Source: Sphingopyxis italica (lineage in GTDB: Bacteria > Pseudomonadota > Alphaproteobacteria > Sphingomonadales > Sphingomonadaceae). From it: 64,000 nt of DNA. The notes beneath the pieces were generated by a model, which saw only the letters and a list, made by a program, of their open reading frames with translations, was not told the DNA's origin and did not search any database. Position numbers and translations under genes: made by a program. The stretch spans positions 1,010,469 through 1,074,468 of the forward strand of contig NZ_JAATIT010000001.1 of the NCBI RefSeq assembly GCF_011926545.1. Direction: 5' to 3'. Below, piece after piece: positions 24,854 to 57,425 of the stretch (its first letter is position 1; the number at the start of each line of letters is the position of its first letter).

Positions 24854-24860
24854 GTCTGCG

Positions 24861-24938
24861 CCCCTGCGAAGGCAGGGGCCCATCTCCGGACGGCGCCATG
24901 TTGAGTCTGCAGGAGATGGATCCCTGCCTTCGCAGGGA
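24861..24938. repeat. Family B palindromic element between divL and tsaE
   Basis: Arms CCCTGCGAAGGCAGGG + CCCATCTCC and GGAGATGG + CCCTGCCTTCGCAGGG enclose a short centre. Length is 78 nt. The inner CATCTCC/GGAGATG arms and outer GCGAAGGC arms are the same as in the element inside mtaB (56441-56518). It lies in the divL-tsaE gap and reaches the tsaE start region. Confidence 0.78.
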
Positions 24939-24968
24939 TGCAGTCGGAAAGGAGGACCGTATGGATTC

Positions 24969-27332
24969 TCACGCTCCCCGCGGCAGGCTGATCCGCACGA
25001 GCGTGCCCTGACCTTCTTCGCTCACCACTTCCATCGTCCCGCCGTGCGCGGCGACAAGCTGGCGCGCGAGCGCGAGGCCGATGCCGCCGGTCGCGGTGCC
25101 CGCCTGCCCCCCCTTGGCGACCGCGGCCGCCGTCTCGGGCATGCCGGGGCCGTTGTCGGACACGATGATGTCGACCCCGCGCGCGTCGCCGTCGGCGTGG
25201 AGCAGCACGCGCGCACCCGACTTGCGCGACGGCGAGGTGAAGCGCACCGCATTGTCGAGCAACCCCGCGACCAGCCGCGACAGCCGCGGCGCATCGCCCT
25301 CGACGCTGCCGAGATTCGCCGAGATATTGCCGACGAGCTCGACCTTCTCGCCGTCGGCAAAAGGCTTCGCATCGGCGAGCGCGCCTTCGAGCAATGCTTT
25401 CACATCGACCGGCGCGCGCTCGATCGCGAGCGTCCCCGCCTCGCCCTGCGCCAGGTCGAGCACATTGTCGATCTGGCGCCCAAGCACGCCGACCGAATCC
25501 ATGATCGCATCGATATAGGCGCGCTGCTGGTCGCCGAGCTTTCCGGCATAGCCCGCCTGCAGCATCTCGCCGAAGCCGCCGATCGAGGTGAGCGGCGTGC
25601 GCAGTTCATAGCTCATCCGCGACAGGAAGGCGGTCTTGGCCTTGTCGGCCGCCTCGAGCGCCTCGTTACGGTCGCGCAGCGCCCCCTCCATCTTCCGGCT
25701 CGCGGTGATGTCGAGCATGATCAGCAGCGCATTGCCGTCGGGCAGCGGGATCGACGCGAAGTCGAAATGGCGCCCGTCGGCGAAACGCACCTCGCCGACG
25801 CGCTGCTGCCGTTCCAGGGTCGCGGCGCGGATGACCTCCTGCACGATGCTGATCTGGTTGGGCTTGGCGAGCCGGTCGGCAAGCCCCGCCATCAGCGCAT
25901 CGACGCGCGGGTGCGCCGCGAGCGTCGGCTCGTCGATGCCCCACAGACGGCGGAAACGCTGGTTCCACAAATGCAGCCGCCCGTCGGGGGCGAAGACCGC
26001 GACCGCCTCGAACAGATTGTCGAAGGTCGCGGTGCGCACGCGCAGCAGCGTGTCGCGCGCGCCAGCGAGCTGCACTTGCTCGGTCTTGTCCTCGGCGATC
26101 AGCAGCAAGCCGCCGTCGGGGGTCGGCTGCGCGACGACGTGCAGATGCGTCCCGTCGCGGAGCAACCAGTCCTCCTCGCTCGCCTCGGCCTGCGCGAACC
26201 AGTCGACATGCGCCTGCCGCCATTCGGGATAGTTGCGCACCTCCGGGGTCCGCCCGCCCTCGCGCCACGCGTCGAGCAGCCGCGCGAAGGGCAGCGCCTC
26301 GGCAACATCGTCGGCCTCGATTCCGAACAGGCGGCGGAACGGCAGGTTGGCGAAACTGAGTCCCTGGTCGGGGCCGAATTGCGCCACCGCCGCCGACAGC
26401 CGGTCGAGCAGTTCGCGCTGCGTATCGACGAAGCGGCGGTGCGCGCCGCGTTCGGTTTCGAGTTCCTGGATGTCGATCGCATAGCCCGCGACGCCGATCA
26501 GGCGGCCGCCCTCGGGCGCCAGCGGCACGTCGACGACGCGCATGATCCGCCGCTCGCCCTCGATCGTCACCGGAATGGTGCGCATCTGCGCCGACCCGGC
26601 GGCGCGCGCCGTGTCGGCGGCATCGGCGGCGCTCACCCCCGCGACGGTTTCGCACAGCTCGATACCCCCGTCGATCACCGCGGCGGCACTTTTTGCCTCG
26701 ACCGCGCGGACATAGGCATTGTTGACGAGCGCGAGCGACAGGTCGGTGTCGCGGAACCACATCGGGAAGGGCGCGGCCTCGATCAGCCCCGACAGCGCCT
26801 CGAACGCCGCCATCGCCTCGTCGCGCTCCTGCCGCGCATGCGCGAGCGCCTGCTGCCCGTCGGTCGCATCGCTCAGCCACAGCAGCACGCTGCCCGCTCC
26901 CCCGACCGCCTCGGGCGCCGCGGCGCCGTGGACGATGATCGTGCGGTGGCTGCCGTCGGGCTTGAGGCTCAGCACAAACGGTTTGGCGCCGCGCTGCGCG
27001 CCGAGGATCGCCTGACGCAGCGCGTCATGCGCCTGCGCATCGAGCCCGCTACCGAGCCCGCGCAGCTCGTCGAAATTGCGCGGGCCTTGGTTAAGCCCCA
27101 GCCAGCGCCCGAGCCGCTCGCTCGCCTCGATCCGCCAGTCGGCGCGGACGATCACGGGAAGCTGCGGCGACGCCTCGACCAGGCTCGCCAGCCGTTCGGC
27201 CTGCCCGGCGACGAACGCCGAACGCCGCTGCATCGCGATCCCGCGCAGCGTCGCCCATAATCCGGCGAGCAGCCACAGCGCCGCGAACAGACCGAGCGCG
27301 AACAGAAACGCGGGGGAAAGCGTGTCGCTCAT
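24969..27332 (-). CDS. divL: DivL-like PAS sensor pseudo-histidine kinase with Tyr at the phosphoacceptor position
   Basis: A 787-residue membrane-anchored kinase: one N-terminal transmembrane segment (residues 8-28), a series of PAS-like sensor domains, then HisKA and HATPase domains. The H-box reads MSYELRTPLTSIGGFGEML, with Tyr575 where histidine kinases have the phosphorylated His. The ATP site has NAVRFTSPS, DNGPGMPE and TGGIGLAL. Caulobacter DivL has the same substitution and layout and controls the CckA-CtrA cell-cycle pathway through DivK. Location beside tsaE agrees. The ATG at 27332 is the first in frame. Confidence 0.87.
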   Translation of the reverse strand: MSDTLSPAFLFALGLFAALWLLAGLWATLRGIAMQRRSAFVAGQAERLASLVEASPQLPVIVRADWRIEASERLGRWLGLNQGPRNFDELRGLGSGLDAQAHDALRQAILGAQRGAKPFVLSLKPDGSHRTIIVHGAAAPEAVGGAGSVLLWLSDATDGQQALAHARQERDEAMAAFEALSGLIEAAPFPMWFRDTDLSLALVNNAYVRAVEAKSAAAVIDGGIELCETVAGVSAADAADTARAAGSAQMRTIPVTIEGERRIMRVVDVPLAPEGGRLIGVAGYAIDIQELETERGAHRRFVDTQRELLDRLSAAVAQFGPDQGLSFANLPFRRLFGIEADDVAEALPFARLLDAWREGGRTPEVRNYPEWRQAHVDWFAQAEASEEDWLLRDGTHLHVVAQPTPDGGLLLIAEDKTEQVQLAGARDTLLRVRTATFDNLFEAVAVFAPDGRLHLWNQRFRRLWGIDEPTLAAHPRVDALMAGLADRLAKPNQISIVQEVIRAATLERQQRVGEVRFADGRHFDFASIPLPDGNALLIMLDITASRKMEGALRDRNEALEAADKAKTAFLSRMSYELRTPLTSIGGFGEMLQAGYAGKLGDQQRAYIDAIMDSVGVLGRQIDNVLDLAQGEAGTLAIERAPVDVKALLEGALADAKPFADGEKVELVGNISANLGSVEGDAPRLSRLVAGLLDNAVRFTSPSRKSGARVLLHADGDARGVDIIVSDNGPGMPETAAAVAKGGQAGTATGGIGLALARQLVAAHGGTMEVVSEEGQGTLVRISLPRGA

Positions 27333-27497
27333 CCCGTCCTATGTCCTCGTCTGTCCGAATATCCCGCGCGCATGATCGCCAGCCCTAAAGGCGAAGGAGT
27401 CATGTTTCAATCGCATGTCATACGGATCGGCGCGCCGCATCATCCGATGGGCGCGCCGATCACAGCTATTGTGATGTTTCCGCTATGCGGAAACGTT

Positions 27498-27580
27498 GCG
27501 GCACCGGCCCGCTCCCCCTCCCGGCCTCCCATAGGCTACTATCGTCAGGGAGGCCGGGAGGGGGAGCGGGCCGGTGCCGC
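27498..27580. repeat. Perfect 33-bp inverted repeat with 17-nt loop
   Basis: The arms at 27498-27530 and 27548-27580 are perfectly complementary over 33 bp (starting GCGGCACCGGCCCGCTCCCC...), with loop ATAGGCTACTATCGTCA. It lies between the ahcY stop and the divL start, both on the minus strand, in a 269-bp gap. There is no T-run on either side, so a classical terminator is doubtful. A 7-bp hairpin (CTTCGCC/GGCGAAG, 27581-27598) sits between it and the ahcY stop and may belong to the same 3' structure. Confidence 0.9.
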
Positions 27581-27601
27581 CTTCGCCGTCAGGCGAAGAG
27601 A

Positions 27602-29017
27602 TCAATAACGATAATGGTCGGGCTTGAACGGCCCTTCGACCGGCACGCCGATATAGTCGGCCTGCTTCTGGCTCAGCTGGCTCAGCTTCACGCCCAGCTT
27701 TTCGAGGTGCAGCGCCGCGACCTTTTCGTCGAGATGCTTGGGCAGCACGTAAACGTCGTTCTTATACTGCTCGCTGCGCGTCCACAGCTCGATCTGCGCC
27801 AGCGTCTGATTGGTGAAGCTCGCCGACATCACGAACGACGGGTGACCCGTCGCGTTGCCGAGGTTCACGAGGCGGCCCTTCGACAGGATGATGATCTGCT
27901 TGCCATCGGGGAACTCGACCAGGTCGACCTGCGGCTTCACTTCGGTCCACTTGTAGTTGGCGAGCGCCGCGATCTGGATTTCGCTGTCGAAGTGGCCGAT
28001 GTTGCAGACGATCGCCATATTCTTCATCGCCGCCATATGTTCGGCGGTGATCACGTCGGCGTTGCCGGTCGCGGTGACGAAGATGTCCGACCGCTGGACG
28101 GCTTCGTCCATCGTCACGACCTCGAAACCTTCCATAGCCGCCTGCAACGCGCAGATCGGGTCGATTTCGGTGACGAGCACGCGCGCGCCGCCGTTGCGGA
28201 GGCTCTGCGCGCTGCCCTTGCCAACGTCGCCGAAGCCGGCGACGGTGGCGACCTTGCCCGCGAGCATCACGTCGGTGCCGCGGCGGATCGCGTCGACGAG
28301 CGATTCCTTGCAGCCATAGAGGTTGTCGAACTTCGACTTGGTGACGCTGTCGTTGACGTTGATCGCGGGGAAGGGCAGCTCGCCCTTCTTGGCGATGTGG
28401 TACAGGCGGTGGACGCCGGTGGTCGTCTCTTCGGACACGCCCTTGATCGCCTTGACCGTCTTGGTGAGGTAGCCGGGGTTCGCCGCGACGAACGCCTTCA
28501 GCGCGCGCTGCATCTCGATCTCTTCCTCATTCTCGGGCGCCGGCATCGTTTCGCCGGCCTCGAGCTTCGCGCCCCACAGCGCGAACATCGTGGCGTCGCC
28601 GCCATCGTCGAGGATCAGGTTGCAGGTCGTGCCGTCCTCGACACCCCAGTCGAAGATGCGGCCGACATAGTCCCAATAATCGGCGAGGCTTTCGCCCTTC
28701 ACCGCGAACACCGGCACGCCCGTCGCGGCGATCGCGGCGGCGGCATGGTCCTGCGTCGAGAAGATGTTGCACGTCGCCCAGCGGACTTCGGCGCCGAGCG
28801 CGGTCAGCGTCTCGATCAGCACCGCGGTCTGGATCGTCATGTGCAGCGAGCCGACGATCTTGGCGCCCTTCAGCGGCTGCGCCGCGCCGAATTCGGTGCG
28901 CAGCGCCATCAGGCCCGGCATTTCGGTTTCGGCGATGTTGATTTCCTTGCGCCCGAAATCGGCGAGGCTGATGTCGGCAACGACATAGTCACGGGTGTCG
29001 GCGGCGAGAGTGGCCAC
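27602..29017 (-). CDS. ahcY: Adenosylhomocysteinase
   Basis: A 471-residue S-adenosylhomocysteine hydrolase, splitting SAH to adenosine and homocysteine with bound NAD to relieve product inhibition of methyltransferases. [16 protein letters not shown] marks the substrate domain, [12 protein letters not shown] the NAD fold, and the C-terminal HYRY tail the dimer contact. The start is GTG at 29017 with GGAGAA upstream. An AT-rich inverted repeat at 29110-29129 lies in its long leader, and a larger palindrome lies at 29227-29248. Confidence 0.97.
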
Positions 29018-48023: not shown

Positions 48024-48088
48024 GGTGCGCTGGCGCCTTCCTGGTTGAATGTCGGCTTTGGGGGCGGTGAGCGGACAGGCCAAAGATT

Positions 48089-48167
48089 CGTCATTCCCGC
48101 GAAAGCGGGAACCCAGCGCGGGATCAGCCTACGCGCGCTCTGGATCCCCGCTTTCGCGGGGACGACG
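48089..48167. repeat. Family B-like palindrome, diverged copy
   Basis: Outer arms CCCGCGAAAGCGGGAACCCA and GGATCCCCGCTTTCGCGGGG frame a GCGCG-rich centre. It has the GCGAA-GC arm of the B family but a different inner arm. With the next element it fills the 306-bp gap 48024-48329, which has no gene. Confidence 0.7.
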
Positions 48168-48214
48168 ATGTAAGAGACGGCAACAAACGGTCGTTTTCTG
48201 CCGCTCCTCTCTCT

Positions 48215-56115: not shown

Positions 56116-57425
56116 CCGCAGCCCTCGCCGACCGCCAGAAGGTCGTCAATTTCGGTTGCCGGCTGAACATCGCCGAGGGCGAGGCCATCCGGTCCGCCGT
56201 CGAGGCGGCGGGCGCGGAAGGCATGATCGTCTTCAACAGCTGTGCGGTGACCGACGAGGCGGTGCGGCAGGCGCGACAGGCGGTGCGGCGCGCGTTGCGC
56301 GAGCGGCCGGGCGCCGAAGTGGTGGTGACGGGGTGCGCGGCGGAGCTTGAGGGTGAGGCCTTTGCCGCGATGGGCGCGCGGGTGGTGCGTAATGACGCCA
56401 AGGGATTGGCGAAGAGCTATCGTCCGATTTCTCCCTTGCTCCCCCGCGAAGGCGGGGGCCCATCTCCTGCCGGCGCTATTTCGAACCCACCGGAGATGGG
56501 TCCCCGCCTTCGCGGGGACACGGGAGTTTATTCGCCCGCACTCTCGGGCGCCAACCATGCGCGGGCGTTTCTTGGCGTCCAGACGGGTTGCTCGCACAGC
56601 TGCACCTTCTGTGCGACAGTAATGGCGCGGGGCGAAGCACGCTCCGCGACGATCGATGCCGTGCTCGATGCCGCGCGCACCGCCCTCGACCGCGGCCAGC
56701 GCGAGATCGTGCTGACCGGGGTCGATCTTGCGAGCTATGGCGACGACAGCGGCACGACACTCGCCGCGCTCGTCGAGGCGTTGCTGACGCTGCCGATCGA
56801 GCGCCTCCGCCTCTCGTCGCTCGACCCGGACCGGATCGACGACGCGCTCTTCGCGTTGCTGACGCAGGAAAAGCGCGTGATGCCGCACGTACACCTGTCG
56901 TTGCAGGCGGGCGATGATATGGTGCTGACGCGGATGAAGCGCCGCCACCGCCGCGCCGACGCCGTCGCCCTGATCGAGCGGTTGAAGGCGGCGCGCGCCG
57001 ATATCGCGATCGGCGCCGACCTGATCGCGGGTTTTCCGACCGAGGACGCGGCGATGTTCGCGAACTCGCTGGCGCTGATCGACGATTGCGACATCGTCTT
57101 CGGCCACATCTTTCCCTACAGCCCGCGCGCCGGCACCCCCGCCGCGCGGATGCCGCAGGTCGGCCGGGCCATCGCGCGCGAGCGCGCCGCGACGCTGCGC
57201 GAAGCCAATGCGCGGCGGCGGCAGGACTGGCTGGGCACGCAGGTCGGCCGCGCCGCGTCGATGCTCGTCGAGCGCGACGGCGTCAGCGGCCACGCCGAGA
57301 ATTTCGCCGCCGTGGCGCTGACCGCCCCCGCGGTCGCCGGCACCATCATCGACGTGCGCCTGATCGCGCGCGACGGCGACCGCATGATCGCCGCCCCCAC
57401 CCAAGCAAAGGAAATCGCCGCATGA
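56112..57425 (+). CDS. mtaB: tRNA t6A37 methylthiotransferase, with an in-frame palindromic insertion
   Basis: A 437-residue radical-SAM enzyme that adds methylthio to t6A37. The N-terminal cluster cysteines are 16, 44 and 75, and the radical-SAM motif CSHSCTFC uses Cys160, 164 and 167. SLQAGDDMVLTRMKRRH and GADLIAGFPTED are family features. Residues 110-136 (LPREGGGPSPAGA...) come from a palindromic element (56441-56518) that sits between the first domain and the radical-SAM core. The frame is kept throughout and no key residue is lost. The ATG overlaps the dapF stop. Confidence 0.93.
   Translation: MTAALADRQKVVNFGCRLNIAEGEAIRSAVEAAGAEGMIVFNSCAVTDEAVRQARQAVRRALRERPGAEVVVTGCAAELEGEAFAAMGARVVRNDAKGLAKSYRPISPLLPREGGGPSPAGAISNPPEMGPRLRGDTGVYSPALSGANHARAFLGVQTGCSHSCTFCATVMARGEARSATIDAVLDAARTALDRGQREIVLTGVDLASYGDDSGTTLAALVEALLTLPIERLRLSSLDPDRIDDALFALLTQEKRVMPHVHLSLQAGDDMVLTRMKRRHRRADAVALIERLKAARADIAIGADLIAGFPTEDAAMFANSLALIDDCDIVFGHIFPYSPRAGTPAARMPQVGRAIARERAATLREANARRRQDWLGTQVGRAASMLVERDGVSGHAENFAAVALTAPAVAGTIIDVRLIARDGDRMIAAPTQAKEIAA
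56441..56518. repeat. Family B palindrome inserted within mtaB
   Basis: CCCCGCGAAGGCGGGG + CCCATCTCC and GGAGATGGG + CCCCGCCTTCGCGGGG are complementary over 26 bp with one mismatch, about 24 nt apart. The element is 78 nt, a multiple of three, without stops in the mtaB frame, and matches the intergenic copy at 24861-24938. Confidence 0.87.

Follow-up and report, generated by a model that had tools for sequence, protein, structure and literature searches.

Bacterial MITEs such as RUP, ERIC and Correia/NEMIS are small, non-coding elements with inverted termini that lie between genes, and a REPIN combines two inverted halves in one unit, as two separate REP hairpins. Tagged REP sequences form two super-families, marked by GTAG and by CGTC, of which, in the available part of PMC3733652, the CGTC type prevails in alphaproteobacteria, N. 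aromaticivorans among those mentioned, and apparently has no dedicated transposase; REPINs have been treated together with RAYT (PMC3116915 and PMC2817692, in their accessible portions). A further relevant process comes from yeast, in which, according to the accessible text of PMC8604942, template switching between inverted repeats homogenises the arms and inverts the spacer between them.

The palindrome described here lies behind ahcY in Sphingopyxis italica, within a stretch of 64,000 nucleotides that was analysed as a whole (the window). It is a low-copy, untagged REP/MITE-like variant with unusually long arms, in a genome without RAYT. Like a REPIN it is made of two inverted halves, but these form one continuous stem, and Y1_Tnp is absent from its own genome and from 15 of 19 carriers. 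With RUP, ERIC and Correia/NEMIS it shares terminal inverted repeats, but it has almost no interior, and direct repeats beside it show no excess over shuffles. Tagged REPs are likewise short palindromes in many copies, with units of 20–40 bp in the available part of PMC3733652, whereas here a stem of 32–33 bp encloses a spacer of 14–18 nt, the tag is lacking, the copy number is low and small hairpins flank the core. The arms homogenised in yeast are mostly of 7–16 bp and lie in genes (PMC8604942, accessible text), in contrast to the 32-bp arms found here in a bacterial family at many loci. Searches of the open-licence PubMed Central literature found no paper for the arm strings and, among the papers listed, none on the family (titles and beginnings of abstracts), and the available part of PMC12306157 contains no word beginning with 'Sphing'.

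Taken as a whole, the explanation that we consider likely is that of an old inserted repeat whose arms template each other, which has spread to the 3′ ends of genes and which would give a stable hairpin in transcripts. The family would offer a natural record, at many loci, of the way in which long, near-perfect palindromes endure in bacterial chromosomes under arm correction, flips and deletion, and knowing it would help annotation and terminator prediction in Sphingomonadales.

The palindrome behind ahcY

The features of the locus are as follows.

27498–27530, no strand: left arm of the palindrome (inverted-repeat search)
27531–27547, no strand: spacer of the palindrome, with ATAGGCTACTATCGTCA as the family motif; in inverted orientation in certain orthologues
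27548–27580, no strand: right arm of the palindrome (inverted-repeat search)
27581–27598, no strand: small hairpin with loop GTCA on the plus strand, which is TGAC toward the palindrome when read from the ahcY side
27476–27494, no strand: third hairpin, a triloop hairpin on the far side of the palindrome, GTTTCCGC-TAT-GCGGAAAC
27602–29017, minus strand: ahcY (TIGR00936), upstream of the palindrome, which its stop codon faces
24969–27332, minus strand: PAS / HisKA / HATPase sensor histidine kinase gene (Pfam), downstream and on the strand of ahcY
27425–27461, no strand: separate hairpin (fold), seen by eye at syntenic sites of congeners, whether or not these have the palindrome

The perfect 33-bp hairpin of the original prediction is real: the arms at 27498–27580 are complementary over 33 nt at 100% across a gap of 17 nt and form the longest perfect inverted repeat of the window (spacers up to 60). 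In 20 dinucleotide-shuffled versions of the window the longest measures 11–15 bp. The second hairpin that it reported (27581–27598, CTTCGCC-GTCA-GGCGAAG) also exists, and the third, at 27476–27494, is one that it did not name. Read on the minus strand from the ahcY stop codon (27602), the small hairpin lies at 3 nt and the palindrome at 21 nt. The fold predicted for RNA of the ahcY strand shows all three hairpins, with a palindrome MFE of −91.0 and −89.3 kcal/mol (one value per strand) and a folding z of −14.7 for the 221-nt region. As had been stated, a T-run is absent, no terminator-like hairpin with one being present at 27300–27700 of the window; the 13 Rfam matches, mostly to microRNA families, are every one below the gathering score. 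The separate hairpin at 27425–27461 is probably an older 3′ structure of ahcY.

The identity of ahcY is given by TIGR00936 above its cut-off. Its neighbour had been called divL, and Pfam agrees with a sensor kinase while the name divL remains a label of that prediction only; among the 25 of 66 matches listed for 24969–27332 no NCBIfam model is above its cut-off. The arm at 27548–27580 is G-rich and fits a four-run G-quadruplex motif, as do 62 of the 73 genus copies.

A dispersed repeat family

The family unit of about 81 bp consists of CGGCACCnGCCCGCTCCCCCnCCCnnCCnCCC, a spacer of 14–18 nt and the reverse complement. The own genome contains seven intact copies (C1:1037966, which is that of the window, C1:1469395, C1:688324, C2:176832, C2:80663, C4:8366 and C4:330422), together with a broken copy (C1:1538282) and a half copy (C3:386018). 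The palindrome is matched in 17 of 24 congeners (Sphingopyxis) and, among 16 genomes from other genera, in G036 alone. In named genomes, a scan for the exact pattern returned at least 117 matching stretches, at least 93 of them in Sphingomonadales, where those listed belong to Sphingomonas (at least 44), Novosphingobium (at least 11), Hephaestia (at least 7), Sphingopyxis (at least 7) and others. Outside this order, at least 15 stretches fall in Rhodospirillales, at least 3 in Hyphomicrobiales and at least 2 in Acetobacterales, and at least 4 are unplaced. The Rhodospirillales stretches among the matches listed come from one Kiloniellales MAG (12), from Pelagibius MAGs (2) and from a Roseospira isolate (1), and contamination may lie behind some of the MAG placements. 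Three plasmid records and 19 IMG/VR stretches also match, and phage records gave no palindrome match. Copies are dispersed, few per genome and mostly intergenic, 3 of the 164 with readable context falling within a called gene.

The copies collected number 181 (73 from the genus and 108 from a wider set that includes IMG/VR), four genus loci that lack a pair of matching arms being left out; 178 are distinct (L211, L224 and L229 being duplicates), 18 of them from IMG/VR. Contig ends often coincide with copies (L149, L172, L173, L202, L203, L213, L215 and others), a sign that assemblies may break at the palindrome. In the Kiloniellales MAG PL25a_bin.68 (L153, L179, L193, L200, L238 and others) the palindrome is multiplied within a larger, fairly fixed unit that has the outer inverted ends CTAGAGCGTTTTCC...GGAAAACGCTCTAG.

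Core and flanking hairpins

Oriented by the spacer, whose motif is YAGGRTAC-like (165 of 181 copies, 16 ties being dropped), the copies share a sharply bounded core, CGGCACC at one end and GGTGCCG at the other, beyond which conservation is slight. Of the 73 genus copies, 51 have a hairpin of at least 6 bp within 45 nt of the core, 25 of them on both sides, compared with 9.3% of 1460 random 45-mers from the same loci. Among core-adjacent tetraloop hairpins of at least 7 bp, 28 of 70 have the loop TGAC, which reads toward the core in all 28, as against 8 of 394 tetraloop hairpins away from the core (TGAC on either strand; 1.8 Mb of fetched and partly overlapping DNA). This enrichment indicates that the small hairpins go with the palindrome, and on the same figures ordinary native terminators were rejected as their identity.

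The stems of these hairpins are varied, with 41 distinct loop-adjacent sequences for tetraloops and 15 for triloops. Between genes of the same direction, hairpins with a T[GACT]AC tetraloop, which we take to be a 'UNAC' loop, stand 20 times on the stop-codon side and 5 times on the start side, and triloop hairpins 7 and 16 times respectively, the copies being non-independent in both counts. The trio of hairpin, palindrome and hairpin is common, not universal, and under a stricter rule 71 of the 181 copies have neither hairpin kind directly beside the core. It is possible that the small hairpins predate the palindrome and served as its insertion targets; TGAC hairpins without a palindrome are present at the ahcY sites of G055 and G073 and also at G000:C3:441689.

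A fixed outer stem round every copy was tried as a further component and rejected, stems of at least 8 bp being found in 18 of 176 copies and in 8.75 with shuffled partners; such a stem is thus clear only in subsets, for example in the Kiloniellales MAG. At L016 (in a shorter form), L119, L180 and L324, which differ in locus and species, the palindrome has another small hairpin, CCCTTCGACGCCACGCGTCGTCTTCGGGCGG, nested within it.

History of the ahcY site

ahcY was matched in 58 of the 60 genus genomes searched (the own genome included), and the gap to the kinase gene is syntenic by sequence pattern in 32. Comparison of these 32 sites finds the palindrome intact in six (G000, G006, G019, G024, which has a nested insert, G042 and G048), arm scars recognised by eye in seven (G008, G012, G023, G053, G054, G056 and G058, of which the script had scored G054 as 'none'), the TGAC hairpin as sole remainder in two (G055 and G073) and nothing left in 17. 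The TGAC hairpin, on which the scar-finding script was keyed, so that scars without it could be missed, is whole or partial at all 13 intact or scarred sites, and the triloop hairpin is present with point changes at 10 of these 13 (by eye).

Because the small hairpins are shared at ahcY but are different at other loci, we infer a single insertion behind ahcY that was followed by losses. The original prediction had offered a recent insertion: an inserted element it is, but one that looks old, since six congeneric genomes, the own included, have what is apparently the same insertion and seven more have its scars. Against a single insertion, the ahcY tree needs 13 changes to account for presence of the palindrome, with equal costs of gain and loss and the script's labels, on a weakly resolved topology in which 23 of 55 inner branches are open. 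No exact empty site was found at ahcY, at the racemase gene discussed below or in a plasmid pair, the spacers being too diverged to place the junction. The likely history is that a copy of a non-coding palindromic repeat inserted about 20 nt behind the ahcY stop codon, in an ancestor common to much of the genus, and has been inherited since. Fold-back of the palindrome would also lead to deletions that leave short scars.

Why the arms match

The original prediction started from the premise that perfect stems decay unless they are selected or new. This premise omits homogenisation of the arms, a third way that is favoured here because of changes found on both arms and of spacer flips. For the genus set, 9 of the 73 copies were set aside as having more than 5 arm mismatches and 2 ahcY copies were added, which gave 45 distinct arm pairs; in these, two-sided changes occur at 12 of 32 positions, compared with a mean of 5.0 and a maximum of 9 in 300 shuffles, and in 54 cells, compared with a mean of 10.3 and a maximum of 18. 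The wider set (74 distinct pairs, collected with a search pattern that fixed one arm and with rows of more than 5 mismatches left out) has 90 two-sided cells against a shuffle mean of 23.3 and maximum of 33; its 7 positions with two-sided changes lie within the shuffles (mean 5.2, maximum 8). The shuffles for both sets ignore kinship among copies. Across 49 orthologous copy pairs, which are non-independent, both arms are changed at 54 positions and a single arm at 98. Pairs that include the divergent copy L067 supply 28 of the two-arm differences; the ten pairs at ahcY have 8 two-arm and 16 one-arm differences.

The spacer lies in opposite orientations between species in 9 of 15 orthologous clusters, a count in which two clusters hold one place under two locus ids and which excludes a tenth case (L119, spacer lost). 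At ahcY it runs one way in G000, G006 and G019 and the other way in G024, G042 and G048, CCATAGGCTACTATCGTCAGG in G000 being approximately the reverse complement of the spacer in G048; other clear flips are L036/L072, L024/L030 and L088/L089. Such a pattern would be expected if each arm templated the other, through a polymerase template switch or through recombination of the arms in the folded-back hairpin, as this would write changes into both arms and flip the spacer. With arms that can template one another, perfection need not mean either newness or selection. We infer template switching as the cause of the matching arms. The main alternative is ectopic conversion by another copy of the family, which would give two-arm changes and flipped spacers; both would likewise follow if a family member re-inserted the opposite way round.

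Position behind stop codons and a role in RNA

Placement was counted for 158 copies (the 178 distinct copies less 17 near contig ends and 3 in predicted genes), with genes called by a codon-usage caller trained on the window, the calls of which agree with annotation at two plasmid places. A stop codon faces 129 of these 158 copies within 45 bp, compared with 167 of 474 random intergenic points in the same loci; convergent gene pairs enclose 54 of the 158 and 45 of the 474, and divergent pairs 18 and 162 respectively. Some agent would spread the family to the 3′ ends of genes, where transcripts from either side would form a very stable palindrome hairpin that may hinder 3′ exonucleases or elongation. 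A role of the palindrome in RNA as a 3′ barrier or stabiliser is plausible.

That the RNA hairpin is itself under selection, as a bidirectional 3′-end element (terminator, attenuator or RNase barrier) in which the two-arm changes are compensatory, is a possibility that we hold only tentatively. The sharp placement behind stop codons and between convergent genes would fit this reading, as would the changes on both arms, the palindrome MFE of about −90 kcal/mol and the flanking hairpins, which retain their form despite differing stems. However, the palindrome is scarred or absent at 26 of the 32 syntenic ahcY sites, where a separate hairpin is seen by eye, and compensatory selection leaves the spacer flips unexplained. 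Moreover, one IMG/VR copy (L271, 10907–10982) sits between genes for Tail_completion_gp17 (PF11367) and a TP901-1-type major tail protein (TIGR02126), which are co-directional, so that a strong terminator would do harm there; this copy directly precedes the ribosome-binding site of the next gene.

Farther along, L271 also has a gene of TIGR02217 (Rcc01695 family), a family name from which we presume the cluster to be gene-transfer-agent-like. Copies in L273 and L277 occupy similar places, and all three phage-like tail-gene loci are perhaps gene-transfer-agent clusters.

Movement of the family

One candidate for the means of spread, conceivable although doubtful, is that the palindrome is a MITE: its 32-bp terminal repeats would account for almost all of its length, and some DDE transposase would move it. 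The sharp CGGCACC and GGTGCCG ends beside little-conserved flanks and the presence of the palindrome in many genera and on plasmids speak for it. Against it, direct repeats of 3–5 nt, judged on the flanks of 175 copies, occur next to the core no more often than in shuffles, longer ones occur in at most one of the 175, and no longer same-ended element around a gene was noticed among the fetched loci. No longer parent element sharing these ends came to light among the unpaired arms listed in the fetched loci; the only facing pair, L184, proved on reading to be an ordinary copy with a distant half copy. In a comparison of plasmids of Sphingomonas sanguinis and S. parapaucimobilis, the left hairpin is missing along with the palindrome, at an inexact junction.

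A more elaborate proposal, which we regard as rather unlikely, is that of a three-hairpin unit (UNAC-loop hairpin, palindrome and triloop hairpin) with an outer part kept in form more than in sequence, placed behind stop codons by a mobilising or processing enzyme that recognises single-stranded DNA or RNA, having a self-correcting and flipping core and competing for 3′ slots with further families of palindromic repeats.

Usual operators are far shorter than 32-bp arms, which weighs against a double-stranded site for a dimeric or nucleoid protein, as does the lack of a match in 7 of 24 congeners (some of them incomplete drafts); even with an arm sequence conserved across genera and a conserved spacer motif, such a site is very improbable. 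Still less credit can be given to a REP or REPIN mobilised by RAYT (Y1 transposase), for although the palindrome is intergenic and at a 3′ location, Y1_Tnp (PF01797) is unmatched in the own genome and not associated with carriage (4 of 19 carriers match and 5 of 22 non-carriers), so that RAYT was rejected as the driver, and the ends are without a tag, no unpaired GTAG or CGTC being found at 12 positions on each side of the 165 of 181 copies that could be oriented. An assembly foldback artefact, which the original prediction had allowed for, or a very recent insertion, as the perfect arms and the several contigs that end at copies might suggest, is refuted, since independent assemblies share the copy at the orthologous place together with its flanking hairpins.

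Turnover at a 3′ slot and other palindromes of the window

The slot before an Asp/Glu racemase gene (PF01177), beside the copy at C2:80663, was compared in 30 fetched loci (L346–L375), the racemase having been matched in 59 of 60 genomes searched. It holds a palindrome of the ahcY type in 2 of the 30, CGTCGCCCC in 7, CGTCATCCCGG in 6 and GAGCTTGTCGAA in 3; a further 10 have only a GC-rich terminator-like hairpin, and the other 2 comprise one that is cut off and one with another gene before. Depending on the Sphingopyxis species, a single 3′ slot thus holds one or another of four palindromic repeat families, and with different repeats by species in one slot the role of REP-like repeats at 3′ ends becomes testable.

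The original prediction had set the ahcY palindrome apart from three families, A, B and C, and the palindrome does differ from the others in the window. These other palindrome pairs lie at 48088–48168, 24856–24943 and 56442–56517 and perhaps belong to families A–C. The pair at 48088 resembles CGTC-tagged head-to-head REP dimers, with CGTC, a stem and a CCCA tail, as these appear in the available part of PMC3733652.
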